From Phaeospirillum sp. (lineage in GTDB: Bacteria; Pseudomonadota; Alphaproteobacteria; Rhodospirillales; Magnetospirillaceae): a DNA stretch of 32,094 nucleotides. Of this stretch, positions 2,771 to 26,402 are shown piece by piece. Within the stretch, counting starts at the first letter, position 1. Each line of letters starts with the position of its first letter. Made by a program: the position numbers and the translations under genes. Location of the stretch: assembly GCA_030824585.1 (NCBI GenBank), contig JAVBXM010000217.1, forward strand, positions 1 to 32,094, read 5' to 3'. The notes under the pieces were generated by a model. It worked only from the letters and a program-made list of their open reading frames with translations, did not search any database and had not been told where the DNA came from.

Positions 2771-3640
2771 ATGTACAATTTGCTTGTTTCGGGAAACGAC
2801 GAGAGCTGGGACGGTCAGCCCTGGCAGATCGAGCAGTCCCGATGTGTCCGCGAGTACACGGATGTCGACATCACATCCCGTTTTGGCAGCCTTTCCGAGG
2901 ACGCGGTTGCTCAGCTGAAAAAGCTGCCCAGTATCTTCGCCTATGAAGCCTGCCATGACCTCGCGCCGAAATTCGGTGCCATCACGAATATCCAGTCACG
3001 GCAAGGGCTGGTCCGCATAGAATACGAAATTCAGCCGCTGGATCGCTTCCTAACCGCGGACGAGCTGCATGAACTGGCGTTTGAGCTTGATATCAGCAAA
3101 TGGGAGATGAATCGTACCCACTGGGCCGTGAAGGACGTGAACCTTGTCAAAGAACTGTCGGCCAAGGAGATCAAGCTTCCAGGGTGGGCCATCGGCCTGA
3201 AGAAGCGGATCGACATCGAAACCCACCACTTTGCCGTCGGTCTTTCATTTCCTGGCGAAGCACGCTCTCTGGTGGAAAAAATTGCTGAGGAGCTTGAGCG
3301 TCTGATTGGCCCGGAATCGTATTTTTACGACAACAACTACGTCGCCCAGTTGGCGCGGCCGGGATTGGATCTGCTGCTCCAGGACATCTACGGCAACCGC
3401 TCCAAGCTCATTGTCGTATTCCTTAGCGGAGACTATCAGCGCAAGGATTGGTGCGGTATCGAGTTCCGGGCGATCCGGGAATTGATTGCCCGACGAGATA
3501 ACAAGCGGGTGATGTTCATCCGCACCGATGATGGCGCTGTCGATGGTGTTTTCAAGACAGACGGCTACGTGGATGCAAGAAAGTTCACAGCGCAGCAAAT
3601 CGCGGAATTCGTCCACGAGCGATCCGCGCTGCTGGAATGA
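2771..3640 (+). CDS. TIR-domain protein, probable antiphage NADase effector
   Basis: A 289-residue protein with a C-terminal TIR domain (about residues 153-286). HFAVGLSFPGEA is the first strand and BB-loop entry, followed by KLIVVFLSGDY and then WCGIEFRAI, where Glu231 aligns with the catalytic Glu of NAD-cleaving TIR domains and W227-C228 are typical. The N-terminal 150 residues form a mixed alpha/beta domain I do not recognise; it may sense a trigger. Start ATG 2771 is chosen because GAGGGGG lies just upstream; an earlier in-frame ATG at 2735 lacks one. The gene is on the plus strand inside a minus-strand phage operon and converges on the primase gene with 17 bases between stops, as expected for an acquired cargo gene. 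Its defence role is inferred from the family. Confidence 0.85.
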   Translation: MYNLLVSGNDESWDGQPWQIEQSRCVREYTDVDITSRFGSLSEDAVAQLKKLPSIFAYEACHDLAPKFGAITNIQSRQGLVRIEYEIQPLDRFLTADELHELAFELDISKWEMNRTHWAVKDVNLVKELSAKEIKLPGWAIGLKKRIDIETHHFAVGLSFPGEARSLVEKIAEELERLIGPESYFYDNNYVAQLARPGLDLLLQDIYGNRSKLIVVFLSGDYQRKDWCGIEFRAIRELIARRDNKRVMFIRTDDGAVDGVFKTDGYVDARKFTAQQIAEFVHERSALLE

Positions 3641-7457: not shown

Positions 7458-8251
7458 CGGCGATTCCCCCAGCAGCGGTCCTGCCAGGCGCAGGGAGAAT
7501 GCCAACCGCCTGCCGTCTTGCCGCCGCGGCAGATCACGGAGGTCCGCTCGGCGGCGGCGCGGGGCAGCAGTTCCTGGGCGTCGCTGGCCCGCACCACCTG
7601 GAATGCGCGGTCACTCATGGTCTGGGCCAGGGCGGCGTCGAACGGAACCAGCTCGCAGTGGATTTCCCAGGTGTCACGGTTCATCGCGGTGAACAGCGCC
7701 GGGGCGGGCAGATCCATGTAGGCCTGATAGAGGGCGATCTGGGCGGCATAGACTGGCTTGGACAACACGACGCCGCGCTTGACCACATCCTTCCACGACG
7801 ACACGCCGAGCGCCTTGTTCTCCCACAGGGCGGGATAGGCCATGGCTACCGGCCCGCCGACCAGACAGCCGTCGATATGGCCCTTGAAGCGGCCGCCCAG
7901 CGCCGAGAAACCGAACTGTTTTCCGTCGCGGCGCTCGGTACGCAGATCGAAGCCGGCGGCCCGCAGCCAGGCCGCCACCACATCCTCACCGCGATGCCCG
8001 GCCTCGAAGATCCGCAAAGTGGCCGGCTCGAAATCGCGGCCCTCGTCCTTGGGCACGGCCAGATAATCGTACTGGATCTGGCGCAAACATTCCCGCCCGA
8101 TGCCGGAGGTGCTGACGTACTGGCGGGCCGCCTGGGACCGGTTGCGGGCGACCAGCGCCGCATCGATGGCGGTGTTCACCGCCATGGTGATACCGGGATC
8201 GCGAGAAGGCCCCTGATACTGGCAGCCGGAGCCATGGTTGAGATCGAGCAT
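7454..8251 (-). CDS. Cas4-like PD-(D/E)XK exonuclease with Fe-S cysteines
   Basis: A 265-residue nuclease. The PD-(D/E)XK core shows GHRGED (residues 85-90), Asp127 in GHIDG, and E-x-K in WENKAL (Glu144, Lys146). Four cysteines are placed as in Cas4/AddB-type Fe-S nucleases: one early (Cys55 in GIGRECLRQ) and three near the C-terminus (Cys241, Cys254, Cys260). It should be a metal-dependent DNA exonuclease, probably the end-resecting partner of the Sak4-like annealing ATPase and RecD-like helicase encoded in the same operon. ATG 8251 is preceded by GAGG at an eight-base spacing; the later ATG at 8185 has no ribosome-binding site. No CRISPR array or other cas gene is visible, so a phage recombination role is preferred. 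Confidence 0.85.
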   Translation of the reverse strand: MLDLNHGSGCQYQGPSRDPGITMAVNTAIDAALVARNRSQAARQYVSTSGIGRECLRQIQYDYLAVPKDEGRDFEPATLRIFEAGHRGEDVVAAWLRAAGFDLRTERRDGKQFGFSALGGRFKGHIDGCLVGGPVAMAYPALWENKALGVSSWKDVVKRGVVLSKPVYAAQIALYQAYMDLPAPALFTAMNRDTWEIHCELVPFDAALAQTMSDRAFQVVRASDAQELLPRAAAERTSVICRGGKTAGGWHSPCAWQDRCWGNRR

Positions 8252-8261
8252 GGCGGCAGCC

Positions 8262-8618
8262 TCAGAACGGGATGGGGTCGTCGAAAGCGGTGCCGTGCCG
8301 CTCCTTAACGCCCGCCTGCCGCTGCATGGAGTCCACGTATCCGGTGACGGCGGCCTCGATCAGGCGGTCGATGTCGGCGGCGGAGCGGTTGAAGAAATGC
8401 TCCATCAGGCCCAGCGCCGTCAGCGCCTCGGCGAAGAGCGGACGGGCATCCTTGATGGCCTGGGTTTCGCGGGCGGTTTTGTCGATCATGCCGTTGCTCC
8501 GTCGGGCGATTTCGGCCCCGGCCTGCTGGCAGCGCGTCGAGCAGAAGCCGTAATGGGGGTAGATGTCGTGGCGCAGGCGGTGGACATAGCCGAAGCCTCG
8601 GGCTTCCCGCCCGCACAC
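8262..8618 (-). CDS. DUF6511-like phage zinc-finger protein
   Basis: A protein of about 118 residues with a likely zinc-binding pair, CAVC near the start and CSTRC about 30 residues on, followed by GMIDKTARE and a C-terminal helical part with IEAAVTGYVDSMQ. This layout (CxxC, a second Cys pair, G-M-I-D, ...VTGY.D) resembles DUF6511 proteins of alphaproteobacterial phages; function is unknown. The start is uncertain. The frame is open further upstream, but that part only shadows the preceding gene. GTG 8618 gives a start inside CAVC, while a CTG at 8633 overlapping the upstream TGA would keep the whole zinc knuckle and fit coupled translation. I consider the CTG a real possibility. Confidence 0.6.
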   Translation of the reverse strand: MCGREARGFGYVHRLRHDIYPHYGFCSTRCQQAGAEIARRSNGMIDKTARETQAIKDARPLFAEALTALGLMEHFFNRSAADIDRLIEAAVTGYVDSMQRQAGVKERHGTAFDDPIPF

Positions 8619-8629
8619 CGCACACAGCG

Positions 8630-8857
8630 TCAGGCCAGCAAGAACCGGGTCAGGTCCGGGTGTTCGCCCGGTTCGTCCTTGATCCGCGAACAGCCCAGCA
8701 CCACGAAGCTGCTGATGGCCGCCTGGGCCATGGCCTCGAGTTCCCACATGGCGAGAACCCTGATGGGCTGATGCAGTCTTCCGCGGGCTTCGAGCCATTC
8801 ACCGATCGCCTTTGCCGCTTGGCGCGTCACATGCGCCTGCCATTCGTCGTCCGTCAT
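8630..8857 (-). CDS. Small hypothetical phage protein
   Basis: A 75-residue, mainly helical soluble protein (VTRQAAKAIGEWLEARGR, then a hydrophobic AMAQAAISSFVVLG stretch). I recognise no family. It is placed as a gene because it fits between its neighbours with an ATG at 8857, keeps the codon bias of the operon and ends where the zinc-finger protein begins. The hydrophobic stretch is too short and interrupted to be a confident membrane segment. Confidence 0.6.
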   Translation of the reverse strand: MTDDEWQAHVTRQAAKAIGEWLEARGRLHQPIRVLAMWELEAMAQAAISSFVVLGCSRIKDEPGEHPDLTRFLLA

Positions 8858-8896
8858 GGGGGGAGCCGCCCGCCGGGGAAACGGGCGGCATCTCCG

Positions 8897-9634
8897 TCAG
8901 CCGTTGAGCCAGGCCGGGCCGGCGCCCGAGGGCTGGGACTGGGCGGCAGGTTGCTGCTGCGCCGGGGGCTGTTGGGTCCACGGCACGCCCGCTTGCTGCT
9001 GCGGCGCCTGCGCCGGAGCGGCATCGGTGGCCCAGGCCGGAGCGCTCTGTCCGGCGCCGGCATTGGCGGGCTTGCGCGGCTTGGCATTGACGGGATCCGG
9101 CTCCACCGCTTCGCCCTTCATCACCGGCTCGTATTGAGGCTCGCCGGGCAGCACCACGTTGGCCAGCCGGTTTTGGTCGCGGTATTTGGGGTCGCTGGCC
9201 GGTTCGACCATGATGCGCGCGGCGAAGGTGATGCCGTCCAACTGCTTCAGTCCCTGCAAGACCCGCTTGGCCTTGGCGGCGTCGCTCATGTCCTTGGGGT
9301 TCAGGCCGAGCGCGCTGTCGACCATGGCGCGGAACGACGCCTTCGAGATGTTCCAGCCCTTGGACTGGCCCTTGTCGTCCAGCTTGCCGCCGGCCACCGT
9401 GAAGTTCTGCCAGAACTTGCGGCGCACAAACGGCCCCTCGACCACGGTGAATTCGCAGTCAAGCATCTTGGCGTCGCTTTCGGACGCCGCCTTCAGCAGA
9501 CCAGCATCCATGGGCGCCGAACCGTTGACCCCGCCGGGGCGGATGGTCATGCGGATCTTGGCGAAGGTGCCGTCGGGGATCAGTTCGCCGGGGGGCATCA
9601 TCTGCGGCTGGGCGTCGTTGAAATCGTAGGACAT
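8897..9634 (-). CDS. Probable phage ssDNA-binding protein with disordered C-tail
   Basis: A 245-residue protein. The first 170 residues form a beta-rich domain (FAKIRMTIRPGG, CEFTVVEGPFVRRKFWQNFTV, ITFAARIMVEP) resembling phage DUF669-type proteins that sit at the SSB position of replication modules. After about residue 175 it becomes a low-complexity tail rich in Ala, Pro and Gln, ending in PAWLNG. Bacterial SSBs also join a folded DNA-binding domain to a disordered tail, though this one lacks the acidic DDDIPF-like tip. Position between the Sak4-like ATPase and the nuclease supports an ssDNA-handling role; this is inference, not a motif-level proof. Confidence 0.65.
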   Translation of the reverse strand: MSYDFNDAQPQMMPPGELIPDGTFAKIRMTIRPGGVNGSAPMDAGLLKAASESDAKMLDCEFTVVEGPFVRRKFWQNFTVAGGKLDDKGQSKGWNISKASFRAMVDSALGLNPKDMSDAAKAKRVLQGLKQLDGITFAARIMVEPASDPKYRDQNRLANVVLPGEPQYEPVMKGEAVEPDPVNAKPRKPANAGAGQSAPAWATDAAPAQAPQQQAGVPWTQQPPAQQQPAAQSQPSGAGPAWLNG

Positions 9635-14033: not shown

Positions 14034-14351
14034 ATGCCAACGCCGCTTGGTGATCGGATCCGGGATCTGCGGATCAAGAAGGGTCTGACGCTGGAAGGTC
14101 TGGCCGGAAAGGTCGAATCCAGCAAAAGCTACATCTGGGAGTTGGAGAACAAGAACGTCGCCAGGCCGTCCGCCGAAAAGCTGCGGCTGATCGCGTTGGC
14201 TCTGGACACGACGACCGACTACCTGCTGTCCGCCGAAGGCGTGAGTGAGACTGGCGAAGCGGATCAGGCGTTTTTCCGCAAATACCAAACGCTCGACGAG
14301 CACGGTAAGAAGCGCTTACAACGGATACTCGACGCCCTCGACGACGAGTAA
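14034..14351 (+). CDS. XRE-family transcriptional repressor
   Basis: A 105-residue Cro/CI-type DNA-binding protein. The helix-turn-helix domain covers residues 5-62: LGDRIRDLRIKKGLTLEGLA, then KVESSKSYIWELENKNVARP and LRLIALALDTTTDYLL. The C-terminal 35 residues are helical and could dimerise or bind the protease next door. With ImmA/IrrE directly downstream it fits the ImmR-ImmA arrangement of ICEBs1, where the protease cleaves the repressor after DNA damage or another signal. It probably represses the divergent DUF2188 operon and itself through the GTTCG/CGAAC sites. ATG 14034 has GAGAGGA upstream at a long spacing. Confidence 0.9.
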   Translation: MPTPLGDRIRDLRIKKGLTLEGLAGKVESSKSYIWELENKNVARPSAEKLRLIALALDTTTDYLLSAEGVSETGEADQAFFRKYQTLDEHGKKRLQRILDALDDE

Positions 14352-14356
14352 GCCCT

Positions 14357-15283
14357 TTGAACCGGAAATCCCCTAAGAAAGCCGCCAACGACCTATCGGT
14401 CTTGTTGCATCAGGTTCTGGGGGAGGAACGGTTCACGCGGAGCCTGGACGAGATCGTTCTCGAATACACCAAGAACCAGCCTGACCCCATCGCCAAGGTG
14501 GTCGCGGATTCGCTGGGCGATTTCGAGGGCATGCTGCGGCCGAGCCGCAAAAAGCCTTGCTGGCACATCGTCTACAACAACGACACCGATTACCGTGGAC
14601 GTGAAAAATTCACCCTGGCCCACGAACTTGGCCACTACCTGCTTCATCGCCGCCCGTTGGGCGCCGCCGACTTCACCAGCGGAGTCGCGAACGACGGTGT
14701 GGATGAGCGGGCCTTCTCCTGCAATCCGCTCGACCGCCACCTCTGGCACAAGTCCAAGGAAGAGATCGAGGGCGAGGCGGACACCTTCGCGTCGTATCTG
14801 CTGATGCCGCTGGACGATTACCGGCAACAGGTCGCGGGCCAGGACATGAGCTTCGACCTGTTGCGCCATGTCGCCAGACGGTATGGCGTGTCGCTGACCG
14901 CCGTGGTGCGCAAATGGATCGAGTTCACCGACCAGCGAGCCGCCATGGTGCTGGGGCGCGATGGTTTCGCCCTGTGGGGCTGGTCGAGCGATTCCGCCTA
15001 CAAGAGCGGCATCTTCATTAACTCGGGGATGGAACTCCCCGAAATGTCCGTCGCCGCCCGTGGCCCTTCATCTCAGAACGGCGAAACCAATCTCCCCATC
15101 GCCTTGCGCGAGAATGTCTGGACCTTCGCCCGCGGCAGTGAACCGGTGCGGGAGCTGACCATCTTCGCCAGCCGGCTCGGGCAAACCCTGTCCATATTGC
15201 TGTTCGACGATGTTCCAGAGCGCGACGCTCTTGAAGAGCCAAGGGAATGGGACACTTACGACCAGTTCCGCTGGCGCGGCTGA
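14357..15283 (+). CDS. ImmA/IrrE-type zinc metallopeptidase
   Basis: A 308-residue protein whose middle carries KFTLAHELGHYLLHRRP, the HExxH zinc-peptidase motif of the ImmA/IrrE family (DUF955), followed by EEIEGEADTFASYLLMP with the third ligand Glu. The expected role is site-specific cleavage of the XRE repressor encoded five bases upstream, lifting repression. After the catalytic core comes a C-terminal half (about 200-308) that could be a sensory domain; I do not recognise it. The start is a TTG at 14357, just after the upstream stop, because no ATG precedes the conserved region closely enough. Two genes in one transcript. Confidence 0.88.
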   Translation: MNRKSPKKAANDLSVLLHQVLGEERFTRSLDEIVLEYTKNQPDPIAKVVADSLGDFEGMLRPSRKKPCWHIVYNNDTDYRGREKFTLAHELGHYLLHRRPLGAADFTSGVANDGVDERAFSCNPLDRHLWHKSKEEIEGEADTFASYLLMPLDDYRQQVAGQDMSFDLLRHVARRYGVSLTAVVRKWIEFTDQRAAMVLGRDGFALWGWSSDSAYKSGIFINSGMELPEMSVAARGPSSQNGETNLPIALRENVWTFARGSEPVRELTIFASRLGQTLSILLFDDVPERDALEEPREWDTYDQFRWRG

Positions 15284-15410: not shown

Positions 15411-15614
15411 ATGTCCATCGCCTTGTCCCCCGACCGCATGACTGCCGCCGAACGCCTCGACGAGGTTGCCGCGATTCTTGCTGCCGGCGCCATGCGAGTC
15501 CTGGCCCGGAAGTCCACTCGTTTATCTGCTGACGGCGGAGACAGTTCCTTCGACTTTACCGCCCACCAGAGCGTGTATGGCGAGGCAACCAACCGCAGGG
15601 TTTCCCGCCGATGA
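15411..15614 (+). CDS. Small recombinase-cassette protein
   Basis: A 67-residue protein. MTAAERLDEVAAILAAGAMR followed by a basic stretch and SADGGDSSFDFTAHQSVYG is the pattern of a small gene that often precedes DUF2924 and a large serine recombinase in alphaproteobacterial elements (my recollection of the cassette; no function known to me). ATG 15411 is used, and an in-frame ATG at 15438 begins exactly at MTAAERL; the ribosome-binding site decides neither. Its stop overlaps the DUF2924 start (ATGA), supporting a real coupled gene. Confidence 0.65.
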   Translation: MSIALSPDRMTAAERLDEVAAILAAGAMRVLARKSTRLSADGGDSSFDFTAHQSVYGEATNRRVSRR

Positions 15615-16060
15615 CGAACATCATCCTCACCCAGGTGGCTGAATTGCCCACCTTACCGACCCCCAGGCTTAAGGCCATGTGGCGCGAACTGACCGGTACC
15701 GAGCCGCCGCCCTACAACCGCACCTTCTTGGTCAAGCGCCTGGCCTACCGGGTCCAGGAACTGGCCTTCGGCGGGCTTTCGGTGAAGGCCGAGCGCCGCC
15801 TCGACGATTTGATCGAGGAATTGGACGGCACGAAGAAGCCGAGGCCCAAGGACATGGCCGCTCCGGTCGCGGGCACCAAGCTGATCCGCGAATGGCAGGG
15901 TGTGCTGCATGAAGTCACGGCACTGGCCGACGGCTTCGAATGGCAAGGGCGCCGCTACCAGAGCCTATCGGCGGTGGCTCGCGCCATCACCGGCACCCGC
16001 TGGAACGGGCCGCTGTTCTTCGGCCTGCGCAAGCACGGCAAGCTGGAGGGCAAGCGATGA
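15611..16060 (+). CDS. DUF2924 protein of the recombinase cassette
   Basis: A 149-residue protein that matches DUF2924: LPTLPTPRLKAMWRELTGTE, then YNRTFLVKRLAYRVQELAFG, and a C-terminal domain with LIREWQGVLHEVTALADGF, FEWQGRRYQSLSAVARAITG and WNGPLFFGL. The family nearly always sits before large serine recombinases in alphaproteobacterial phages and islands and may help target or control them; the mechanism is not known. It overlaps both neighbours by ATGA, so the cassette is translated as a chain. Confidence 0.9.
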   Translation: MTNIILTQVAELPTLPTPRLKAMWRELTGTEPPPYNRTFLVKRLAYRVQELAFGGLSVKAERRLDDLIEELDGTKKPRPKDMAAPVAGTKLIREWQGVLHEVTALADGFEWQGRRYQSLSAVARAITGTRWNGPLFFGLRKHGKLEGKR

Positions 16061-16925
16061 TCCCGACCAAGCCGATTCGCAAGGTCCGCTGCGCCATCTA
16101 CACCCGCAAATCTTCGGAGGAGGGCTTGGACATGGAGTTCAACAGCCTCGACGCCCAGCGGGAATCCTGCGCCGCCTACATCGCCAGCCAGAAGGCCGAA
16201 GGCTGGGTGCCGGTGCCCGACCATTACGATGATGGCGGGTTCTCCGGCGGCAACCTGGAACGCCCGGCGCTGAAACGCCTGCTGGCCGATATCGAGGCCG
16301 GGTTGGTCGACGTGGTTGTGGTCTACAAGATCGACCGCCTGTCGCGCTCACTGATGGATTTCTCCAAGCTGGTCGAGGTGTTCGACCGCAACGGCGTCAC
16401 CTTCGTCTCGGTCACCCAGTCGTTCAACACCACCACCTCCATGGGGCGCCTCACGCTCAACATCCTGTTGTCCTTCGCCCAGTTCGAACGGGAAGTAATC
16501 GGCGAGCGCATCCGCGACAAGTTCGCCGCCTCGCGCAGGAAGGGCATGTGGATGGGTGGCGTGCCGCCGCTCGGCTACGACGTCATCAATCGCAAGCTGG
16601 TGGTGAACGCCGCCGAGGCGGATCTGGTGCGCCACATCTTCCGCCGCTTCCTCCAGGTCGGTTCCGCCACCCTGCTGGTCAAGGAACTGAATGTCGCCGG
16701 CCTTCACACCAAATCCTGGATCACCCAGGACGGCAAGGAGCCCTTGACCGCTTTGAGGCACTCTGGGACGAGTTGTTCCCGGTCGAGCAGGCCCGTATCC
16801 TCCAGCTTCTGGTCGAGAAAGTGGCCATCGCCCCAGACGGTGCCGAGGTCCGCTTGCGGGCCGAGGGGCTGGCCAGCGTGGTCGCCGACATCACCGCCCA
16901 AACCGGTGACAGGAGCGCGGCATGA
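16057..16925 (+). pseudogene. Large serine recombinase, internal deletion and frameshift
   Basis: Begins as a large serine recombinase: CAIYTRKSSEEGLDMEFNSL with catalytic Ser19, then IDRLSRSLMDF, the LLSFAQFEREVIGERIRDK helix and the start of the recombinase domain, up to WITQDGKE (about residue 228, base 16740). There the frame jumps. The next recognisable piece, FEALWDELFPVEQARILQLL followed by VEKVAIAPDG, is the family's C-terminal end but lies in another frame and stops at 16925. Roughly 250 residues (DNA-binding recombinase domain, zinc ribbon, coiled coil) are missing compared with the usual 500-550. The first frame runs on to 16995 as nonsense. It should be inactive for integration unless a helper acts in trans. 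Confidence 0.88.
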
Positions 16926-17329
16926 CCGCCGACTTCAGCATCGACACCTTTACCATCCGCGTGCCGTTGACCCTCCGCCGCCATGGTGGACGTAAGCTGG
17001 TGATCGTGCCGGAGGGAGAGGGTGTTCCTGTGCGCGTCAAGCCCACCCCCAACGACACCCTGCTGAAAGCGCTCGCCCGCGCCCACCGCTGGAAGCGGAT
17101 GCTGGAATCCGGACAGGTGCGGTCGCTCAATGAACTGGCCGAGGCTGAGAGGATCAGCCCGTCCTATCTGACCCGCATCTACCGCTTGACCCTGCTGGCA
17201 CCCGACATCGTCGAGGCCATCCTCGACGGTCGCCAGCCGCGCACATTGCAACTTGCCGATCTGATGGATGACCTGCCGGTGGAGTGGGAACGGCAGCGGG
17301 AGGCGTTTGAGATAGCGGAATTCGCGTAA
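16922..17329 (+). CDS. Recombinase-associated HTH protein
   Basis: A 135-residue protein. After a short beta-rich lead (FTIRVPLTLRRHGGRKLVIV) comes a ParB/KorB-like helix-turn-helix, about residues 50-100: LLKALARAHRWKRMLESGQV, RSLNELAEAERISPSYLTRI, and LLAPDIVEAILDGRQP. Genes like this follow serine recombinases in many alphaproteobacterial phages and islands. A regulator or directionality role is possible but unproven. It starts as ATGA over the stop of the deleted recombinase's C-terminal frame, showing that this overlap survived the deletion. Confidence 0.8.
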   Translation: MTADFSIDTFTIRVPLTLRRHGGRKLVIVPEGEGVPVRVKPTPNDTLLKALARAHRWKRMLESGQVRSLNELAEAERISPSYLTRIYRLTLLAPDIVEAILDGRQPRTLQLADLMDDLPVEWERQREAFEIAEFA

Positions 17330-17490: not shown

Positions 17491-17567
17491 ACCCTGCGTG
17501 GAGAGTTCACACGAAACGCGACATAGGTTAGGAAGTTGTGTCACGCCAAAGTGGCGAAGGGCACAGC

Positions 17568-19082
17568 ATGCACGATTCCAGATTTGGTCCGCTAACATCT
17601 TCTGCCGACTGCCCTCGAGATCAGGCAGCGGAAGGGACGGCCTCGTTGAAGGAAAGTGCCGGGGAAACCCCGTCTGTCGGCACACAAACAATAGTTCCGC
17701 CGTTGATGCGCTTCCTGATCCCAGCGTTACGGTTGGTGGACCTACACGATTCATGCCGTACCCTGGGCACATCCATGGCCGCGCCTTCCGAGGAACGAAC
17801 AGGCCTGCAAAACGCCGTTTACTGCGCCATCGCATCTGCTCTGCTGGAATATTTGCGCGATTGCGAAACCAGGGGCGCTTTCGAGTTCGTCGATCTCACT
17901 CCTTTTGCAAAGGAGTATTGCCAGGAGTTTGGCGTTGGCCCGGAGGACGTGCTTTGGGTGGCCCAGACCCTCGCCACGCCCACCGAAGCACGATGGCCAG
18001 GGGGTTCGACCAAGGCGACCTCACCGCTGAAGAAACTCCGACGCGGCCATTCCTACATGCTCGATCGGGTCGGCCGCGAGTTGCTTGCCTATGTCGCTGG
18101 CTATTTCCGATGGGTGCATGCGGGCGCGGAGGCGCGCAAGCTAATTACCGATCTCGAGAACGGCGACATGGAATCCTTCCGTGATGTCGCCCAGCGCATT
18201 CTGACCAAGATCCGCTCGGAACTGTTCGACCTTCGCCAGTTGAAGGAACAGCCGGAGGTCACCGTCCTGCAGCAGAGCTTCATCGCCCAGTCCGGCCGCT
18301 TCATCAAGACCTTCGTCGAGGTCTCCCGGGTAGTCGGGGAGGCCCAAGGGCAACTGCGCAATCCCACCACGGTGCGGATGCTGCAGGGCTGGGCGGAGGT
18401 CAACGAGGTCGAAGTCGAGGACGTGCTGGGCGAGGCCAATGACACCCTGACCAGGTTGGCCAGCGCCAACGCCGTGCTGCACCGCCTGGTCGCCGATTTC
18501 GTCGCCGAGGTGCAGTCGCGCCAGCGCTCCTTGGTAGGGGTGATCGGCTTCGACAAGGCCATTGACCGCTTCCTGCGCCTACGCAGTGCCGCTCCCGAGA
18601 TCGACCCGGGCTTCCTCGAAGAGATCATGGACAAGACCGGGCCGGTGTCGTTCCCCGGTCTCGAATTCAATCCATTGGAACTGCGGAACATCGTTGCCAA
18701 ACGTGTACGGTCGGAACCGACTGTCCGCCAGCGAATCCGTCGCGAGAAGATCGAGCCCAAGCTGGACCGCGTTGATGCCTTCGTCGCCCGTAATCGCGAG
18801 GTCATCCTGCGCATGTTGGAGGCCGGGCCGGTCTCCCTCAGTCAGTTTCTCGCGGCCGACGAGACCGACGACCCGGATCAGGCGCTCAACAACTACGATC
18901 TCGACCTGCTGATCGAGATGGCGACCGTGTTCTTCTCGCCATATGTGCTGCGACTCGACGACCAGATGAAAACAAAATGCCTGCGCTTCCAGGTCGGCGA
19001 GGAGACGGTGTGGACGCTGAAAGACGGCTGGACCCTGCGTGGCCCCGAGCTGTTGATGGAACTGGCGGAAAGGAACGTCTGA
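17568..19082 (+). CDS. jetA: JetA-like kleisin (MukF-type) subunit of a Wadjet-like system
   Basis: A 504-residue soluble, helix-rich protein, first of four overlapping genes arranged like jetABCD. Size and position match JetA/MukF kleisins, which bridge the two heads of the SMC ATPase. Residues 45-190 look like winged-helix and dimerisation parts (PPLMRFLIPALRLVDLHDSC; AVYCAIASALLEYLRD; LDRVGRELLAYVAGYFRWVH). A long helical middle (220-400) follows, and the C-terminus ends in a winged-helix-like block with SLSQFLAADETDDPDQALNN and KCLRFQVGEETVWTLKDGW. ATG 17568 is preceded by GAAGG; a GTG at 17538 is in frame but has no advantage. A CGCCA-AAG-TGGCG hairpin lies just upstream of the ribosome-binding site. 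Sequence similarity to known JetA is faint; the call depends largely on context. Confidence 0.72.
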   Translation: MHDSRFGPLTSSADCPRDQAAEGTASLKESAGETPSVGTQTIVPPLMRFLIPALRLVDLHDSCRTLGTSMAAPSEERTGLQNAVYCAIASALLEYLRDCETRGAFEFVDLTPFAKEYCQEFGVGPEDVLWVAQTLATPTEARWPGGSTKATSPLKKLRRGHSYMLDRVGRELLAYVAGYFRWVHAGAEARKLITDLENGDMESFRDVAQRILTKIRSELFDLRQLKEQPEVTVLQQSFIAQSGRFIKTFVEVSRVVGEAQGQLRNPTTVRMLQGWAEVNEVEVEDVLGEANDTLTRLASANAVLHRLVADFVAEVQSRQRSLVGVIGFDKAIDRFLRLRSAAPEIDPGFLEEIMDKTGPVSFPGLEFNPLELRNIVAKRVRSEPTVRQRIRREKIEPKLDRVDAFVARNREVILRMLEAGPVSLSQFLAADETDDPDQALNNYDLDLLIEMATVFFSPYVLRLDDQMKTKCLRFQVGEETVWTLKDGWTLRGPELLMELAERNV

Positions 19083-19903
19083 TGGATTTCGAGCGCATCG
19101 GTCAGGTGCAGTCGTTCCTGCTGCGTCATCGCGCCATCTACAGCAAGGCTCCTTCCTATCGCCGCCTGCTCGACGGCGAGGCCGAGGCAGCCGAGGCCAT
19201 GCGCCTGCTACGGGAGGAGGAGCACGAAGCCCTGGCTTCGCTGCTGCGGGGCGCGGCGGGTTACGACATCCACGAATTCCGTGACGACATGCAGGGCATC
19301 CCTCAAGGTGGTTACGCCTGGGTTGCGGTCACCGCCGCCACCGCGCCGCCGACGCCGGTGCTGTCGATGGACAAGGCCTGGGAAGGCCTTGCCATCCACA
19401 GCCAGGAACCGCGCGCGGTTACCATCTACTGGTTCACCTTCCTGTGGCTGTTGCTGTTGCGCCTGTTCTACGAGCGTGAGGGCCGCGCCCTATCGCAAGT
19501 GTCCCAATACGTCCAGGCCGTGGTCGTCCGTACCGAGCTGGAGGAGCGGGTGACTGAAAAGCTTGAGGCGCTCCGCCAGGACGGGGTCGGCACCGATGAC
19601 GACGCCTATCCGGTGGCGGCGGCGCTGCTGCATGCTGGGCGCGACCGCAACACCACACAGACCGACATTCGCAATCGCGTCAGCCGCTTCTTGGACATCC
19701 TGACCAAAGCCCGACTGATCGAGCGGTACGGTGAGGACGAGGGCGAAGCGCGATGGCGCCAGTCACTATTGTGTGCGGTTCAGGTGTCGGAATTGTTCTC
19801 GGCTGGTCTCATCCATCTCGTCCCGCTCGATGGTATGGAACGGGAAATCGCCTCTTACACCCACTCCAAGTCCGTGGAGGTCAGCAATGGCGCTGATGAA
19901 TAG
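19082..19903 (+). CDS. jetB: JetB-like (MukE-type) winged-helix subunit
   Basis: A 273-residue protein, overlapping the jetA-like stop by one base (TGATG) and the jetC-like start by 17 bases. It looks like the MukE/JetB partner, which binds the kleisin and DNA: helical N-terminus (FERIGQVQSFLLRHRAIYSK, LLREEEHEALASLLRG), then LLLLRLFYEREGRALSQV and a C-terminal winged-helix pattern with TDIRNRVSRFLDILTKARLI and SELFSAGLIHLVPLDGME. The hydrophobic stretch YWFTFLWLLLLRLFY near residue 120 is probably a buried core helix rather than a membrane segment. Length is a little above the usual JetB. Identity is inferred from operon order. Confidence 0.7.
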   Translation: MDFERIGQVQSFLLRHRAIYSKAPSYRRLLDGEAEAAEAMRLLREEEHEALASLLRGAAGYDIHEFRDDMQGIPQGGYAWVAVTAATAPPTPVLSMDKAWEGLAIHSQEPRAVTIYWFTFLWLLLLRLFYEREGRALSQVSQYVQAVVVRTELEERVTEKLEALRQDGVGTDDDAYPVAAALLHAGRDRNTTQTDIRNRVSRFLDILTKARLIERYGEDEGEARWRQSLLCAVQVSELFSAGLIHLVPLDGMEREIASYTHSKSVEVSNGADE

Positions 19904-22900
19904 GTGGGAAATCTCGAATTTCCTCGACAGCCGCAAGGGCCGTGAGTGGATCCCCGACTTCGTCGGCGAGTGCTTCGACTTCGGCGGCCTGTCGAGCGCT
20001 GTCAACATGGACAACGGTCTGGGCAAAAGTTCGTGTACCGAGGCGGTGCTGTGGATGCTGTCGCGTGACCGTGAACTCGGTCGCAAGACCAAGCCCCGCA
20101 TCGCTCCCGAATCCGACGGGCGCTTCACCCACATCCGTTGTGAATTCGTCGAGCCGAAGGGGGATATCGCACCCCATGGCGAGCGCATTATCGGCGAGAC
20201 CTGGGTGTTCGGCTACTACGGCAACCGAGGCGATGAGGGGTGCTTCTACTGTTACCCCGGTAGCCTGGAAGATTGCCCGGTCCACTTCGACGAGATCGAT
20301 GGCGACGGCGCCGCCTACAAGGTCTGCATTCCCGACGAGGAGTTCCGGGCCAGCTTGGCCAAATTCAAGAACACGGTGATTACCGGCGCCCGCGACTGGG
20401 GAGCGCGCGTACGCCAGTTCATGTCCGGCGCCCAACTGGAGCAACTGGTGGCCTACCAGAAGAAAGGCGGCGGCGATAAGGCCGCCACTTTCTACGACGT
20501 CAAGATCGGGAGGAAGGAGGCGTTCGACGAGGCATTCTTTCGTCAGTTCGTCGCTCCCGAAATCCTGGTCGGGGTCGGCGACTTCGACGAGGATATCGAT
20601 GCGCGCGGTTTTGACCGCAAGATCGTCGCCCAGGCCCAGAGTGTCATCGACGCCAAGATCAAGGTGAAGGCCAAGGCGGACGTCATTGCCAGGACTGAAC
20701 AGAACCTGACGGCCATCCGGGCGGTCAACGACGCCGCCAAGACCGTGCTGGAGGCCGAGCGCAAGTTCGCTGAGCAAGCCGAGGCCACGGCGCTGGCGGT
20801 CACCGTGATCCGCTCGGCGGTCGAACGCTGGGGTATCGCGGGTATGCCGGTTGCCATCGAAGACATGCCCCTCGGCGAAGAGGACCGACAGGCATTGATC
20901 TACGGTGGATGGGAAGTGGGCGGCGGTCCGGTCGTATCGCTGGAATGGCTGGATTCCCACATCGGCAACCACAAGGCCAAGCCCTTCAAGATGATTGAAA
21001 CCGGCATGGTTCGGGTCTTGCCGCTCTCAGTGCAGCCGATCATCAAATCGCGCTTGGCCACTATTCGTTTTGCGCGGCTCCAGGATGTGATCGAGGGGCT
21101 CAGCGAATCCCGGTCCAAGTCCGGGGTCGAGGCCATCATCCGACGTGCGGAAGTGTTCGCCGACGCCGTCCGTCGCTTCGGCATTACCGGTCTGCGCCAT
21201 ATTCATCTCGACGCCAGCAGCGCCTTCAACAGGGCACAATTGACGGTGCAAACTCTCGAAGAGGAACGTACCCGCCTGCAAGATGAGCGTGCCGGGCTTC
21301 TCGACCAGTTGACCAAGTTCGAGGCCAACGAAACCGCCTACATCAAGATGCACGGCTCCGGTCTGTTCACCGACGAGGAATTGGCCGATCCCCTGACCAC
21401 CCAGCGGCTGGTCGAGGAAGCGCGCAAGGCTGCGCGCAAGAAGGTCGAAGATCACAACCGCCGGACAGTCGAACTGGAGCAGGTCAGGAAGCAGTATGAC
21501 GCGGTTGTGCGGGAGTTCGGGCTCTCCGAAGACCTCTGTGCCCTGCTCGACAGCCTGATCGAGGCGATGCAGAAGGCAAGCGAGGAAAGCGCTGAGGCGC
21601 AGGCCAAGTATGTGGAGGCGAAGCAGGCTCTGGAGCAACTGCGCCGCGATGAGGAGAGGTCGCGCGAGGCTCTGGGAGTAGCGAGTCGGGCGATGGAGGA
21701 ATTCGCCCGCAAAGCCGCCGACATGCAGACCTTCCAGGAGGAATTCGGCGCCGACGCGGATCCCGCGATGGAGGCCGAGCGCCTCGCCGAGGCGCGCGAC
21801 ACCGCGCAGTCGGCGGAGGCCCTCCGGGAAACCGAGGCCAAGGCCGCTGTCGCCAAGGTTAGCGATCTTGAACGCCAGAGCGCGCAGGTCACCGACGAGG
21901 GCGACCGGCTGTTGGCGCGGATCGGCGAATTGGAGGTCCAGGAGCCTCGGCTGCGCGCCTTCGAAGCCGCATATCCTGGCCGCGATGCCACCACCTTCCT
22001 GGTCGAGGAAACCGAACACCTGCGTGACGGCAACGCACTGGCCAAGTCCGCCAAGGAACGCAATATACAGTTCGCTCCGCTGGTGGCGGACCTCGACGGC
22101 TTCGAGACGACCCATCCCGGCAGAGACCCTTCCGCCTGGCTGACCGAGGCCGAGCGCACGCGCAGCGAGGCCACCATCACTTTGGTCGAGATCGGCCGCC
22201 AGATCGCCAAGGCCACGGCAGACCGCGACGCTCTCAAAGCATTCCGGGTGGCGCCGACCGAAACCGACGACGCGGCGGCCACGCTGATTGCCGACCTGCC
22301 GCATCGGCCGCTGCATGGGATAATCCGCGAGACGGCGGATCTTCCGCCCTCGCGCCGGGCCGACCTGCTCGACCATTTCTCAGCCCTGTTGTTCGCCCCG
22401 GTGTTCGCCACCCTCGACGCGGCCGAACTGGCGGCCCGGCGACTGGCCGATGCGGAACTGCCGGTGCCGGTGCTGGTGGAAACCGACCTCGCAGCCTGGA
22501 TCAGCGGTAGCGACAAATTAGTGACGCGCCAGGTCACCACCGCCGGTGAGGTGGTGACCGGCTTGTTCACCGGCATCCGCACCCCCACCGTCGAGGCCAT
22601 TCTCGACCCCGAGGCGATGGCACGGCGCCTGGCGGAGACCGAGGCCAAGCTGGCCGACCTGGAGCAGCGGCAGGAGGACCTTCGGGAGATCGTTACCAAC
22701 CTCTCGCCCGAAGGCGAATCCTGCCGCTTGGCCCGCTCGGCGGCCGAGGCCATCACCAAGTCGGCGCGCGACCATCTCGCCCGGGCTGAGGCCGACGCCC
22801 TCAAGGCGGCTGATATGATCGCGGTGGCCGAGGCCAACCTGACCGCACAGGTCAAGGTCCTGGTGGGTGAGGCCAACCGCTATCTGCAGGCTGGGGGCGA

Positions 22901-24860
22901 TGCCGCCCTGGTCAAGGCTCGCGAGGATGCCGAGGCGGTTGAACAGAAGCTCGCCGAACTGGTGGAACTGCTTGAAGGTGCGCGGGACTTGCTGGTGCAG
23001 GCCGAATCCCGCCTCGTTTCCGCGAAGGAGCAGGCCCGTCAGGCCGAGGCACGGGCGGCGCAGTGGCTGTCGTGGTGCGAGAAGGCCAGCGCCTTCATCG
23101 CGGGCGGTGGCGCCGACGAATTGACACGGCGGCGGAAGGCGGTCGATCAGGCCGACGATGCCTATCGCGGAATTCCGATCAAGATCCAGGCCGCAACGAT
23201 CGAATGCGGGACGCTGGAAGACATCAAGGATAAGGCGGTCGACGCGAGCCGCACCCAGGAAGCGCGGGTAAACCGGTGGCGCGAGCCGCTGGAAATTACG
23301 GCCAAGTTCGTCGAATCCGGTGAACGCGAGGAACTGGCGCGCGCGCCAACGACTCTCAAGACCCTGGAAGACGCGGAGATCAAAGAAGAGGCTCGCCTGC
23401 GCTTCGAGTTCGAGGCAGCGGCTAACTTTGTCGTCAGCGGCGGCACCAAGGGTGTGGAACCTGCCAAGTTGCGTTTCGAAGAGATCAAGGCACGGATGGA
23501 CGTCATCGAGCGCGAAGCTCTACCCGAGGCGACCAAGATCCACGACCAGGCAGAGAGGTGGTCAAGGACTGCCGCTGACGCCAATACCGCTGCGGAGCAG
23601 AAACTCACCGCCATCATCCATGCCTACCATCAGGTCGTCACCAGGAGCAGCTTCGATGGCGTTCACATGGTGGATGGGCCAGAGATCGACAGGTACCGTG
23701 CTGTTGCCGCCGGGCTGAGCGAGATGGCGATTGCACCGGAAGCGCCACACGACATGGACAGCATGGGCAGGATCGTCACCGTTTACGAGACCCTGGCGGA
23801 TCACGTAGGCACCTTCAGCATCGACAGTCTGCACGAAAACATGAAGACGGCTTCCGCCAATCGTGAAATGACCCGCACACAGTACGAGGCGGCTGTCGAT
23901 CGCGAGGCCAATCCCAACCGGCCCCTTGACCCTGCGATTCGGCACAAACTGGAAAGCGCCCGCAAGAAGCCGGAAGAAGTCCCCGCGCTGCTGGCCACGG
24001 TCGAGCAGACCCTGGCGTGGGAACGCACTCTGCACGCGTCGGCCCAGGAGGGGCTGGACAAGGTGCAGGTGGAATTGGTGAGCATCCTTCAGGGCATCGC
24101 GGGCAACGCGAGCGTCAATCTGATGCGGCTCAAGAAGGTGCTGTCCGGCGGCGAGGGAGCCAAGATTCGCCTCAACGTCATGGTCGCCAACGATGAGCAG
24201 ATCGGTACTGTGCTGGAACGGACGGTCGATGACATCGAGACCGAGCATACCCGTTTCAAGGAAGATCAGGCCAAGGGGCGCAATGTCAGCGAGGAGCAGT
24301 TCTCCGCGCGCCTGACCAGCAGCGTCCGTGAGACGGTTTACCAGCGGATGTTCGTCAATGGTGGTGAAGGCGACCATCTGATCACTATCGAGCATCCGAA
24401 CATGCGCGAAGGGCGGCCGTTCCGCTTCGAAAGAGACGGCATCAGCGGCGGCCAGGCAACCGCGCTCACCCTTTTGTGGACGATCAAGCTGGCCGAATTC
24501 GCAGTGGTGCGAGAAACCGCTAACCTGTCCTCGACGACGCGGCGACGTGCCAACACCGCTCAGCACTCCATCGTCATCGTCGACGGCCTGTTCTCCGACC
24601 TATCGAAGCCCGAACTGATCGATGAGAGCATGGAGGCGATGCAGGGCATCAAGGGGGCGTTCCAGTTGATTGGCCTGATCCACTCCCCGCACTATCGCAA
24701 CAACTGGGAGCGCTTCCCGACCCTGATCATCGGCCGCAAGGTCGCCAGCATCGACGATCGCGGGCGTAAGAGCGAAGCGGTTGCCATTGAGGGCAAACGG
24801 CAGGTGCGTGGCCGGGTGATGGCGCTGACCTACGGAGCATCCGATGGCAATGCGGCCTGA
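19887..24860 (+). CDS. jetC: JetC-like SMC/MukB-type ATPase, very long
   Basis: A 1657-residue SMC-like motor, longer than usual JetC and MukB (1486). Head: NMDNGLGKSS (residues 40-49, GKS at 46-48) is the P-loop. Then come a long coiled coil (about 240-790), a globular centre (about 799-905) in the hinge position, a second coiled coil (about 910-1450) and a closing head with ISGGQ (1519-1523, ABC signature), HSIVIVDGLFSDLS (Walker B Asp1566) and a LIHSPHY switch-like histidine. In Wadjet systems JetC extrudes loops of circular plasmid DNA by ATP hydrolysis until JetD cuts. Two odd points: the residue after Asp1566 is Gly, not the usual Glu, and the first P-loop Gly is Met41. GGAGG six bases before ATG 19887 fixes the start. 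Both arms carry repeated F-x-x-x-G motifs. Confidence 0.8.
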   Translation: MALMNRWEISNFLDSRKGREWIPDFVGECFDFGGLSSAVNMDNGLGKSSCTEAVLWMLSRDRELGRKTKPRIAPESDGRFTHIRCEFVEPKGDIAPHGERIIGETWVFGYYGNRGDEGCFYCYPGSLEDCPVHFDEIDGDGAAYKVCIPDEEFRASLAKFKNTVITGARDWGARVRQFMSGAQLEQLVAYQKKGGGDKAATFYDVKIGRKEAFDEAFFRQFVAPEILVGVGDFDEDIDARGFDRKIVAQAQSVIDAKIKVKAKADVIARTEQNLTAIRAVNDAAKTVLEAERKFAEQAEATALAVTVIRSAVERWGIAGMPVAIEDMPLGEEDRQALIYGGWEVGGGPVVSLEWLDSHIGNHKAKPFKMIETGMVRVLPLSVQPIIKSRLATIRFARLQDVIEGLSESRSKSGVEAIIRRAEVFADAVRRFGITGLRHIHLDASSAFNRAQLTVQTLEEERTRLQDERAGLLDQLTKFEANETAYIKMHGSGLFTDEELADPLTTQRLVEEARKAARKKVEDHNRRTVELEQVRKQYDAVVREFGLSEDLCALLDSLIEAMQKASEESAEAQAKYVEAKQALEQLRRDEERSREALGVASRAMEEFARKAADMQTFQEEFGADADPAMEAERLAEARDTAQSAEALRETEAKAAVAKVSDLERQSAQVTDEGDRLLARIGELEVQEPRLRAFEAAYPGRDATTFLVEETEHLRDGNALAKSAKERNIQFAPLVADLDGFETTHPGRDPSAWLTEAERTRSEATITLVEIGRQIAKATADRDALKAFRVAPTETDDAAATLIADLPHRPLHGIIRETADLPPSRRADLLDHFSALLFAPVFATLDAAELAARRLADAELPVPVLVETDLAAWISGSDKLVTRQVTTAGEVVTGLFTGIRTPTVEAILDPEAMARRLAETEAKLADLEQRQEDLREIVTNLSPEGESCRLARSAAEAITKSARDHLARAEADALKAADMIAVAEANLTAQVKVLVGEANRYLQAGGDAALVKAREDAEAVEQKLAELVELLEGARDLLVQAESRLVSAKEQARQAEARAAQWLSWCEKASAFIAGGGADELTRRRKAVDQADDAYRGIPIKIQAATIECGTLEDIKDKAVDASRTQEARVNRWREPLEITAKFVESGEREELARAPTTLKTLEDAEIKEEARLRFEFEAAANFVVSGGTKGVEPAKLRFEEIKARMDVIEREALPEATKIHDQAERWSRTAADANTAAEQKLTAIIHAYHQVVTRSSFDGVHMVDGPEIDRYRAVAAGLSEMAIAPEAPHDMDSMGRIVTVYETLADHVGTFSIDSLHENMKTASANREMTRTQYEAAVDREANPNRPLDPAIRHKLESARKKPEEVPALLATVEQTLAWERTLHASAQEGLDKVQVELVSILQGIAGNASVNLMRLKKVLSGGEGAKIRLNVMVANDEQIGTVLERTVDDIETEHTRFKEDQAKGRNVSEEQFSARLTSSVRETVYQRMFVNGGEGDHLITIEHPNMREGRPFRFERDGISGGQATALTLLWTIKLAEFAVVRETANLSSTTRRRANTAQHSIVIVDGLFSDLSKPELIDESMEAMQGIKGAFQLIGLIHSPHYRNNWERFPTLIIGRKVASIDDRGRKSEAVAIEGKRQVRGRVMALTYGASDGNAA

Positions 24861-26007
24861 TGAGCGGGCGGAAATTGCGCGCGAAATCCTGCGCAGGTAT
24901 CTCCGCTCCGGCCAGACTACCATGCAGGGCGCTTCCGCCCTGAAGCGGCTGGAAAGTGACCAGCAGATCGGCACCCTGATCGATGCCCGGCTGTTCCTCA
25001 AGGCCCTAGTGGACATGGGTGAGGTCGAATGCACCTGGGTCGACCGGCAGGGGCCGATTGGCCTGATGACGCTGAAGCTGGCTCCGCCGCCGATGTCTGC
25101 CGCCGAGGCAGAATGGCGTGCTCTTGTCGCCGACCTCCTCACCACCCGAGTCGACGTGCGCCAGGGGGACGCCGCCGCTATCGGTAACTTATGGCCCAAG
25201 CTAGTGGATTGGCCGTCATGGTGTGCCGCCGACCTAGTCGCTGCTCTCTATGATTTCCGCACGCGGCTGGAGGCGGGCGAATGCGGTGGCAAGACCGCCT
25301 ACCTCTTCAGTGCCTCGGGCCGCTTGGCCTCATCGAAACTGCTGTCGCTGCTGCCGAAGCCAGCTCTCCAGGCCTTCGGCATCGACACCACCCTGCTGGC
25401 CGACCCGCCACCCTACGTCATCGTCGCCGGGCCGCCCGAACCACAGGCGGTGGTGCTGGTCGAAAACCCGGAAGCCTTCGAGTCGGCCGTGGCTGCGACC
25501 GCCGACCTTCCCGTCGCCTGGGTGTCCACCTACGGCTTCGGCATCGCCCATGTGGAAGGGGCAGGTGCCCGAATGGCGGCGGCCATCACCTCACTGGTGG
25601 CGCCCATCCCCCTGGTGCGGGCCGGAGCGCCGCCACCGCTCGACCAACTGCTGGCCCATCAGCGCCTTTTCCACTGGGGCGATCTCGATCTCGCCGGTCT
25701 GCTGATCTTTCGCAGCATGCAGGTCGCCCGGCCTCAACTGCGCCTCAGTGCCCTCTACCAGCCGATGATCGCGCTGCGGCAATCCGGCGGCGGGCATCCC
25801 TATGCCGAGGCAACCGGGAAGCCCAAACAGGACCGATGGACATCGAACGATCCGCTGATTTCCGACTTGCTGGCAATTTGCGCAACCCGGGCAGTTGATC
25901 AGGAATATGTTGGTGTCGGGGCCATCCGCTCATTGGCCCTGAAGGCATTGGACGAACTCATTTTCGATCAGAACATCGCCCCCCTGACGAACAGCCGCTG
26001 CAGATGA
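24844..26007 (+). CDS. jetD: JetD-like Toprim nuclease (DUF2220 type)
   Basis: A 387-residue protein, the last of the four genes. The C-terminal half is a JetD/DUF2220 Toprim domain: VVLVENPEAFE with Glu207, and HWGDLDLAGLLIF with Asp280 and Asp282, the acidic trio that binds metal in topoisomerase-type nucleases, followed by RAVDQEYVG, a conserved QE near the end. The N-terminal 180 residues are the DNA-binding part (a basic helical start and WPSWCAADLVAALYDFRTRL). In Wadjet, JetD is the nuclease that cleaves DNA once loop extrusion stalls. ATG 24844 overlaps the jetC-like stop by 17 bases, the same overlap as jetB-jetC; a second ATG at 24850 is possible. This is the most secure Wadjet assignment of the four. 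Confidence 0.82.
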   Translation: MAMRPDERAEIAREILRRYLRSGQTTMQGASALKRLESDQQIGTLIDARLFLKALVDMGEVECTWVDRQGPIGLMTLKLAPPPMSAAEAEWRALVADLLTTRVDVRQGDAAAIGNLWPKLVDWPSWCAADLVAALYDFRTRLEAGECGGKTAYLFSASGRLASSKLLSLLPKPALQAFGIDTTLLADPPPYVIVAGPPEPQAVVLVENPEAFESAVAATADLPVAWVSTYGFGIAHVEGAGARMAAAITSLVAPIPLVRAGAPPPLDQLLAHQRLFHWGDLDLAGLLIFRSMQVARPQLRLSALYQPMIALRQSGGGHPYAEATGKPKQDRWTSNDPLISDLLAICATRAVDQEYVGVGAIRSLALKALDELIFDQNIAPLTNSRCR

Positions 26008-26402
26008 TTTTCCGTGGCTGATGGAATAAGCATGCAATGGGCAATATCAAGCCGTTGACCGCCCGATTCGACCCCAGGTTCCCTCGAAGCTCAGTAAAAA
26101 CTGCGGAACGGTCAAGGGCATTGCGGCGCACAACATATTGATTCTCAAAGTCTTCGTAAACCCGTACCGTTTGGCGGCAGTCAACAGCTTGCGGAGAATA
26201 CGGGCCGGAGAGAAGAGAAAATGGGCTGAAATTCGGCCTTTGCCAGACGACAAGGTCAACAGCTATGGGCCGCAAACGGCCCAGAACCTGGGGCTTTCAC
26301 CCAGGGTTCTTTCCGTCAGAGAATATGTTCTTTGAAGTAAATGGCGGAGGGAGAGCGGCCAGAAGCGAACCTTCTCCAAGCGAATACGCAATTATATGTA
26401 TC
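26008..26402. other. Intergenic stretch at the end of the element
   Basis: About 395 bases separate the jetD-like stop from the response-regulator stop and look less GC-rich than the flanks. Short open frames occur on both strands, but none has a ribosome-binding site or a family I recognise. Two adjacent hairpins near 26266-26309 are the only clear structure. The right junction of the mobile element probably lies here, but I see no convincing tRNA end or direct repeat. Confidence 0.5.
26266..26309. terminator. Paired hairpins, probable terminator region between convergent operons
   Basis: TGGGCCG-CAAA-CGGCCCA (26266-26283) is a perfect seven-pair stem with a four-base loop. Next to it, GAACCTGGG and CCCAGGGTTC (26284-26309) form a second stem with one bulged G, followed by TTTCC. 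The pair lies between the Wadjet-like operon and the opposing regulator operon, where a bidirectional terminator would be useful. The T-tract is short. Confidence 0.5.

Follow-up and report, generated by a model that had tools for sequence, protein, structure and literature searches.

The 32,094-nucleotide contig JAVBXM010000217.1 (C246) of a 4.94-Mb Phaeospirillum sp. genome, referred to below as the window, carries a four-gene operon encoding a Wadjet-like nuclease system built around an SMC (structural maintenance of chromosomes) ATPase. The operon is Wadjet-like in make-up and is not a type I or type II member by the models tested. It probably represents a lineage of its own, distinct from Wadjet types I and II and unmatched by the type III models, with a predicted function. 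The Walker-B glutamate common to the type I and type II references is replaced by glycine in the SMC protein of this variant in all seven sequences available.

Four intact plus-strand open reading frames (ORFs), A to D, span positions 17538-26007 and overlap by 1 base (A/B), 17 bases (B/C) and 17 bases (C/D). This is the order jetA-jetB-jetC-jetD recognised in a first-pass annotation of the sequence, and the same order recurs elsewhere, as described below. The start of A is uncertain, with candidates at 17538 (GTG), 17568 (ATG) or about 17709, and three of the four homologues start near window residue 55-58. The product of the fourth gene is, by its sequence, a JetD-type Toprim nuclease: it matches PF09983 (JetD_C) at 26.2 bits, above the curated cut-off of 22, and the PADLOC JetD1 model at 2.9e-12. 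The predicted Toprim metal site, E207, D280 and D282 (contexts VENP and WGDLD), which the annotation had singled out, is invariant in all 10 aligned JetDs, 7 from the variant and 3 from type I, and the alignment profile matches the solved MksG and JetD at WGDLD (E 0.002-0.13).

JetC is an SMC ATPase, as judged from its Walker A, C-loop and Walker B motifs and from local, domain-wise profile-profile comparisons with type I, in which reversed profiles served as the null. The N-head matched at E 1.9e-7 (0.38 reversed) and a hinge-like domain matched 134 columns in the middle part of type I JetC at E 0.0012 (0.11 reversed), so that the head, arm and hinge layout proposed earlier holds, in the form head-arm-hinge-arm-head, with the hinge as its weak part. 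Just after the N-head, the alignment and composition profiles of five variant, four type I and one type II sequence reveal a globular-looking neck insert; the type I profiles show none there, and the insert of the window gave no relevant Pfam match. JetC of the window is 1657 amino acids (aa) long and those of four full-length relatives 1520-1629 aa, against 1099-1152 aa in 8 type I references and 1392 aa in the type II reference. The protein had been described as far longer than typical JetC; against type I the excess is clear, while the PADLOC JetC3 model, at 1471 positions the longest JetC model encountered, is exceeded only moderately.

The ATPase site is unusual throughout the family, as the annotation had suspected for the window alone. 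Walker A reads NGxGK[ST] in 5/5 full-length members, with the first P-loop glycine replaced by Met, Ile or Leu, and the GxxxxGK[ST] form is kept in 8/8 type I references and in the type II reference. Walker B reads hhhDGLFSxLS, with DG in 7/7 variant sequences (the five full-length proteins, L010, which is near-identical to the window, and L011) and DE in 9/9 references (8 type I, 1 type II); in the profile alignment the variant glycine falls on the reference glutamate. That glutamate is a sequence feature of the references and no part of the formal Wadjet definition. A histidine in the context FQxIGxxH is present in all seven variant sequences and in none of the nine type I and II references; by our own reading, it corresponds to the switch (H-loop) histidine of ABC and SMC ATPases.

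Homologous operons came from searches that used D first and a C-head alignment afterwards. The order A-B-C-D is whole in four other genomes, one of the same genus (L016 in G012) and three others (L020 in G439, L040 in G1132 and L041 in G1091), and in G025 the operon is divided between two contigs (L009 and L010). Its nearest named relative is in a Magnetospirillum metagenome-assembled genome. A further, broken copy (L011) lies on the Pseudomonas aeruginosa plasmid pPUV-6, where a C-terminal piece of JetC and a JetD are located near a Tn3-family transposase and mer genes. The variant system is rare among the genomes searched. D matched in 6 of 60 relatives, the own genome counted (3 variant operons and 3 of type I), and in 3 of 398 genomes of a phylum sample, namely the own genome and G439, both with the variant, and G243 with a 27% JetD. 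The C-head search returned 2/385 genomes in the class of the window, the own genome and one short match, in G694 (47 positions in a 252-aa frame, E 3e-4), that was not counted as a member; in the class of G439 it returned 3/369, every one a member. When a plasmid collection was searched by tblastn with C of three members or with D, only the same two P. aeruginosa records were retrieved.

Ratios of nonsynonymous to synonymous substitution (dN/dS; Nei-Gojobori, window versus G025, with A and C covered only in part) were 0.092 for A (308 codons), 0.054 for B (273 codons), 0.186 for the N-part of C (1203 codons), 0.045 for its C-part including Walker B (348 codons), the lowest of the operon, and 0.216 for D (369 codons). 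Because the order recurs in four genomes and the ratio is between 0.045 and 0.216 in all four genes, the operon is not a chance arrangement; these are genuine genes that make up a conserved unit. The same values indicate that the unusual JetC residues are maintained rather than decaying. In the locus L015, a minus-strand frame at 7873-9603 opens like a Tn7-type transposase, in our reading, and closes as the end of a variant-type JetD.

The assignments of A and B as kleisin and MukE-type partner were originally made from size and gene order; independent, if weak, evidence from folds and profiles now agrees with them. Neither protein has a Pfam or PADLOC match above threshold. AlphaFold2 models were built on 5-sequence alignments, and the chains they matched in the Protein Data Bank (PDB) were assigned to MukE or MukF from chain length and entry titles. 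For JetB (predicted local distance difference test, pLDDT, 74 and predicted TM-score 0.75 for the best of five models, the remaining four having 47-56), the top five Foldseek matches were MukE-length chains of MukEF or MukBEF entries (E 0.008-0.07). The top four for JetA (pLDDT 59.7) were MukF-length chains of MukBEF entries (E 0.0017-0.064), and chains of MukF length from MukEF or MukBEF entries reappeared at ranks 6, 7, 10, 19, 32 and 41 among the best 50 listed. The predicted folds thus give consistent but weak support for a kleisin and a KITE (kleisin-interacting tandem winged-helix element) subunit, short of proof, and structure prediction did not point to another fold for either protein.

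To place the variant among known systems, we compared five members with 8 type I sets (L012, L013, L014 and L045-L049) and one type II set (L051). Type I status was assigned by PADLOC for L012, by similarity for L013 and L014, and by tblastn with the L012 JetC plus annotation for L045-L049; L048 has no annotated JetD and is without a JetD row, and L050 was used for JetD only. BLASTP detected no similarity to type I in A, B or C (0/40 pairs per subunit) and none to type II (0/5 pairs each for A, B and C; 0/7 for D). When type I sets were compared with one another, same-genus pairs apart, JetC matched in 15/15 and 10/10 pairs, JetA in 12/15 and 7/10, and JetB in 6/15 and 5/10. With PADLOC, the controls scored 575, 246 and 1361 bits for JetA, JetB and JetC of the type I operon L012 and 675, 470 and 1486 bits for the type II operon L051; on the variant it recognised D and otherwise gave scattered sub-threshold matches. 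None of the five variant JetAs matched any PADLOC model at E <= 0.1. Among the window proteins, the JetA1 (PF18982/DUF5716) and JetC1 models found no match, nor did the type II models JetA2 (DUF2397), JetB2 (DUF2398) and JetC2; JetB scored 12.1 bits against JetB1 and 10 bits against DUF4194 (cut-off 32.7).

Profiles reach further. Besides the N-head and hinge, forward and reversed comparisons with type I gave E 0.012 and 0.43 for the C-head, 0.0027 and 0.27 for A, and 0.0029 and 0.5 for B, and nine mismatched pairings ranged from E 0.045 to 0.57. Each variant subunit therefore looks distantly type-I-like, in register. Profiles compared at whole length in global mode showed no match in A (E 0.97), a value of E 0.004 in B and an alignment out of register in C; the local, domain-wise runs superseded that comparison. 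The variant shares with type I the overlapping A-B-C-D order, these weak but control-tested domain matches and a JetD profile match (E 1.5e-32, a value helped by the presence in the type I profile of three JetDs from same-genus operons, which are close to the variant). It differs in the lack of BLAST similarity in A, B and C, in the longer JetC, and in having DG instead of DE, the lost Walker-A glycine, the switch-type histidine and the neck insert. With type II it shares the four-gene layout and a weakly related JetD (profile E 5.3e-5), whereas BLAST matches are lacking for A to D, and in the type II reference JetC carries DE and JetB is 438 aa long.

Several results weigh against a separate lineage of this make-up. 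The C-head match to type I is weak. Type I and type II C-heads do match each other (E 1.7e-10) better than the variant C-head matches either (0.012 for type I, 0.45 for type II), which sets the variant apart, but for the N-head the variant is closer to type I than type II is (3.8e-5), and the same holds for JetA (0.11 for type II versus type I); for JetB the two are alike (0.0013 for type II versus type I). These distances, in which type II is represented by a single sequence, are mixed and place the variant ambiguously relative to types I and II. The Pfam SMC_hinge model matched none of the five members. A PDB sequence search with the JetC profile returned chance coiled coils only and no SMC protein, and the JetA and JetB profiles found neither MukF nor MukE; the type I JetC of L012 likewise had 0 matches. 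As for the models, no Foldseek match of A or B reached E <= 0.001, TM-scores were low, and JetA was modelled with low confidence and JetB well in only one of five cases. On function, only analogy speaks for anti-plasmid action, and a conjugative plasmid itself carries a remnant of the system.

JetD tells a different story from its partners. Three same-genus genomes, G004 (L014), G006 (L012) and G015 (L013), have ordinary type I JetABC, and their JetCs match other type I JetCs in 15/15 pairs and variant JetCs in 0/15. Their JetDs match variant JetDs in 21/21 pairs (median 140 bits by BLASTP, compared with 135 bits among variant JetDs themselves) but match other type I JetDs in only 5/12 pairs, at 39 bits at most. 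In the JetD tree, which has no independent root and was built without the divergent JetD of G243 and the remnant in L015, variant and same-genus type I JetDs are joined on a branch with support 97/99.6. These distances and this branch suggest that JetD has been exchanged between the variant lineage and same-genus type I operons. Two results count against exchange: grouping the same-genus JetDs with the other type I JetDs was not rejected (approximately unbiased test, p-AU 0.059), and when four long rows were removed from the tree the joining split became merely the other side of the variant clade. Exchange is thus favoured, not proven. The type II nuclease is also present in the own genome in the form of a remnant (L052, on C108, about 8028-8678; a 221-aa frame, 101.6 bits), and visual inspection of the ORFs listed for that 19-kb stretch revealed no type II JetA, JetB or JetC.

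The most likely function, in our view, is that of a Wadjet-like SMC nuclease acting on small circular DNA. JetC, together with the JetA kleisin and the JetB KITE subunit, would form a DNA-handling ring, which would present or license the JetD Toprim nuclease to cut. By homology, the target would be small circular invading DNA, such as plasmids or circular forms of phages or other elements, which would be sensed and then cut. JetABCD cuts circles but leaves linear DNA uncut, depends on ATP and on a JetC whose ATPase functions, and has been proposed to extrude the whole circle before cutting (PMC10586767). We infer assembly of the complex, sensing of circularity, cleavage and any catalytic role of the histidine from these homologues. 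The distinguishing step would be the use of ATP. Loss of the glutamate matters because the E-to-Q change at Walker B abolishes the ATPase of Corynebacterium glutamicum MksB (PMC10123090). Since the variant has lost the glutamate and kept a switch-type histidine, ATP may be hydrolysed by a different catalytic arrangement, perhaps involving the histidine, or very slowly, or else its binding may act as a switch.

The last option can be taken further. It is possible, and we hold it tentatively, that the SMC protein is an ATP-bound switch or clamp instead of a hydrolysing motor, in which ATP binding would shut the ring around DNA and JetD would be licensed by the resulting trapped state. The clamp mechanism itself is our proposal, with a partial precedent in LmuB, the SMC-like ATPase of Lamassu, which has Gln at the Walker-B Glu position, low or no hydrolysis being expected for the Vibrio system (PMC10586767). 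Replacement of the glutamate by glycine in 7/7 sequences, loss of the first Walker-A glycine in 5/5 and the strongest constraint of the operon in the C-head part of C all fit such a protein. Yet the histidine conserved in 7/7 hints at retained hydrolysis, and the known Wadjet mechanism requires a working ATPase (PMC10586767). A defence aimed chiefly at phages or rival integrative elements, and not at plasmids, appears unlikely: phage-like genes neighbour the operon in the window and WYL regulators lie beside two relatives, but circular plasmids are the target of the closest characterised systems (PMC10586767).

The annotation had placed the operon outside types I-III. With respect to type I and II sequences this stands, as there is no BLAST match; type III was compared through PADLOC models, without a type III positive control, and not through sequences. 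It is rather unlikely that the operon is a strongly diverged member of type III instead of a separate lineage. The type III likeness consists of the long JetC and of sub-threshold scores with the JetB3, JetC3 and JetD3 models: among JetB models JetB3 scores best on the window (12.7 bits, E 0.015), and among JetC models JetC3, the longest, does so (20.4 bits), with matches in 2/5 members. However, the JetC3 match is confined to coiled coil (residues 496-676) and that of JetB3 to 52 residues, B of the other four members is without a match (E <= 1 for L016; E <= 0.1 for L020, L040 and L041), and the JetAs, as noted above, match no model. A JetB3 search found nothing in 229 Pseudomonadota genomes but also nothing in 14 control genomes, and is thus uninformative on absence; the short matches in JetC3 and JetC2 profile searches of genomes were set aside as coiled-coil noise. 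A JetD2 search retrieved three of 229 genomes, with the full type II operon L051, the own-genome fragment L052 and a weak match in G277. That the operon is a pseudogene relic, its odd JetC residues due to decay, can be dismissed as most improbable despite the broken plasmid copy and a jetD remnant in G012, because all four window ORFs are intact, dN/dS is low in each gene and the Walker-B residues are identical in 7/7 sequences.

Two other SMC systems invite comparison. The predicted folds of A and B best match MukF and MukE; the variant differs from MukBEF in having a nuclease gene and in showing no PDB sequence match to MukB, MukE or MukF. MukBEF has no nuclease gene. Lamassu resembles the variant in that LmuB lacks the Walker-B glutamate (E to Q; PMC10586767), but LmuB is about 650 aa long and has other partners (PMC10586767), whereas the variant JetC has 1657 aa, Gly and not Gln at this position, and a kleisin, a KITE protein and JetD as its predicted partners. 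On JetC, the LmuB model matched in the arm region only, the Lamassu models in PADLOC gave no match to A, B or D at E <= 1, and an LmuB of about 650 aa with an LmuA effector or LmuC was not found in the window operon. No fourth or divergent Wadjet type was found in open-licence PMC literature, most subscription papers being outside the search; the articles consulted were PMC10586767, PMC8954581, PMC12647877, PMC10123090, PMC12287153 and PMC13040014.

The operon is flanked on the left by genes of phage-like character (Table 1). In a search with a 2.2-kb query, the DUF2924/recombinase region matched Acidithiobacillus phage AcaML1 at 74% DNA identity across 35% of the query length. Origin from a phage-derived element, as first suggested, is only half shown: the left half of the window has these genes, but four scans of viral contigs (0, 34, 90 and 48 pattern stretches) confirmed no relative of C or D, and JetC retrieved nothing from phage records in two tblastn searches. 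The DUF2924/serine-recombinase pair, next to which the operon was suggested to be mobile cargo, is present; joint movement of the operon and these phage-like genes is conjectural. On the right lie a two-component pair and metal-efflux-type genes (copper by our own reading). From about 26340 onward, three same-genus genomes share this locus at 91-92% identity, which fits an accessory operon set beside a host locus. Divergent WYL-domain regulator genes adjoin jetA in L016 (16189-17028) and L041 (16078-16893); no such gene was seen among the window ORFs that were scanned, and no tRNA or Rfam match was found.

Two further features of the window were observed. A plus-strand ORF at 2735-3640 in the phage-like part encodes a TIR domain (PF13676, 32.7 bits) and may be a second defence gene. 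Between the operon and the metal-efflux locus, at 26051-26351, lies a dispersed repeat of about 300 bp with three more copies in the own genome and more than 15 matches listed in other members of the genus; its left edge is at about 26050 and its right edge at about 26351 or 26377.

Table 1. Genes, domains and motifs of the Wadjet-like operon and genes on its left side, in window coordinates
Feature	Coordinates	Strand	Description
jetA-like gene	17538..19082	+	514 aa; predicted kleisin (MukF/JetA-like); start uncertain
jetB-like gene	19082..19903	+	273 aa; predicted KITE subunit (MukE/JetB-like)
jetC-like gene	19887..24860	+	1657 aa SMC ATPase: N-head, neck insert, arm, hinge-like domain, arm, C-head
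JetC Walker A, MDNGLGKS	20007..20030	+	residues 41-48; first Gly of GxxxxGK[ST] replaced
JetC neck insert	20829..21176	+	about residues 315-430, just after N-head; globular-looking
JetC hinge-like middle domain	22236..22670	+	residues 784-928
JetC Walker B and D-loop, IVDGLFSDLSK	24576..24608	+	residues 1564-1574; Gly 1567 at expected catalytic Glu
JetC His 1599 (FQLIGLIH)	24681..24683	+	read as switch (H-loop) histidine
jetD-like gene	24844..26007	+	387 aa Toprim nuclease; E207, D280, D282
VapE/primase	3658-6156	-	left of operon; Pfam
RecD-like helicase	6153-7505	-	left of operon; RecD-like is our own label
DUF6511 and AAA_24 genes			left of operon; Pfam
HTH	14034-14351		left of operon; Pfam
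IrrE-type peptidase	14357-15283		left of operon; Pfam
DUF2924	15611-16060		left of operon; Pfam
Serine recombinase	15940-16995		left of operon; Pfam

An intact operon of the variant kind thus has its A, B and C genes missed by PADLOC 2.0.0. In the accepted picture, ATP-driven loop extrusion measures the DNA circle before JetD cuts, and the family-wide loss of a hydrolysis residue, under purifying selection and alongside conserved partner subunits, offers a natural test of the need for extrusion. As a tentative extension, the variant could be a fourth Wadjet lineage whose SMC protein, lacking the catalytic glutamate, would work as a histidine-based switch or an ATP-locked clamp, so that circles might be cut without ordinary extrusion, with JetD as an exchangeable module. 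If the nuclease has indeed been swapped between motors, JetABC and JetD would be separable modules.

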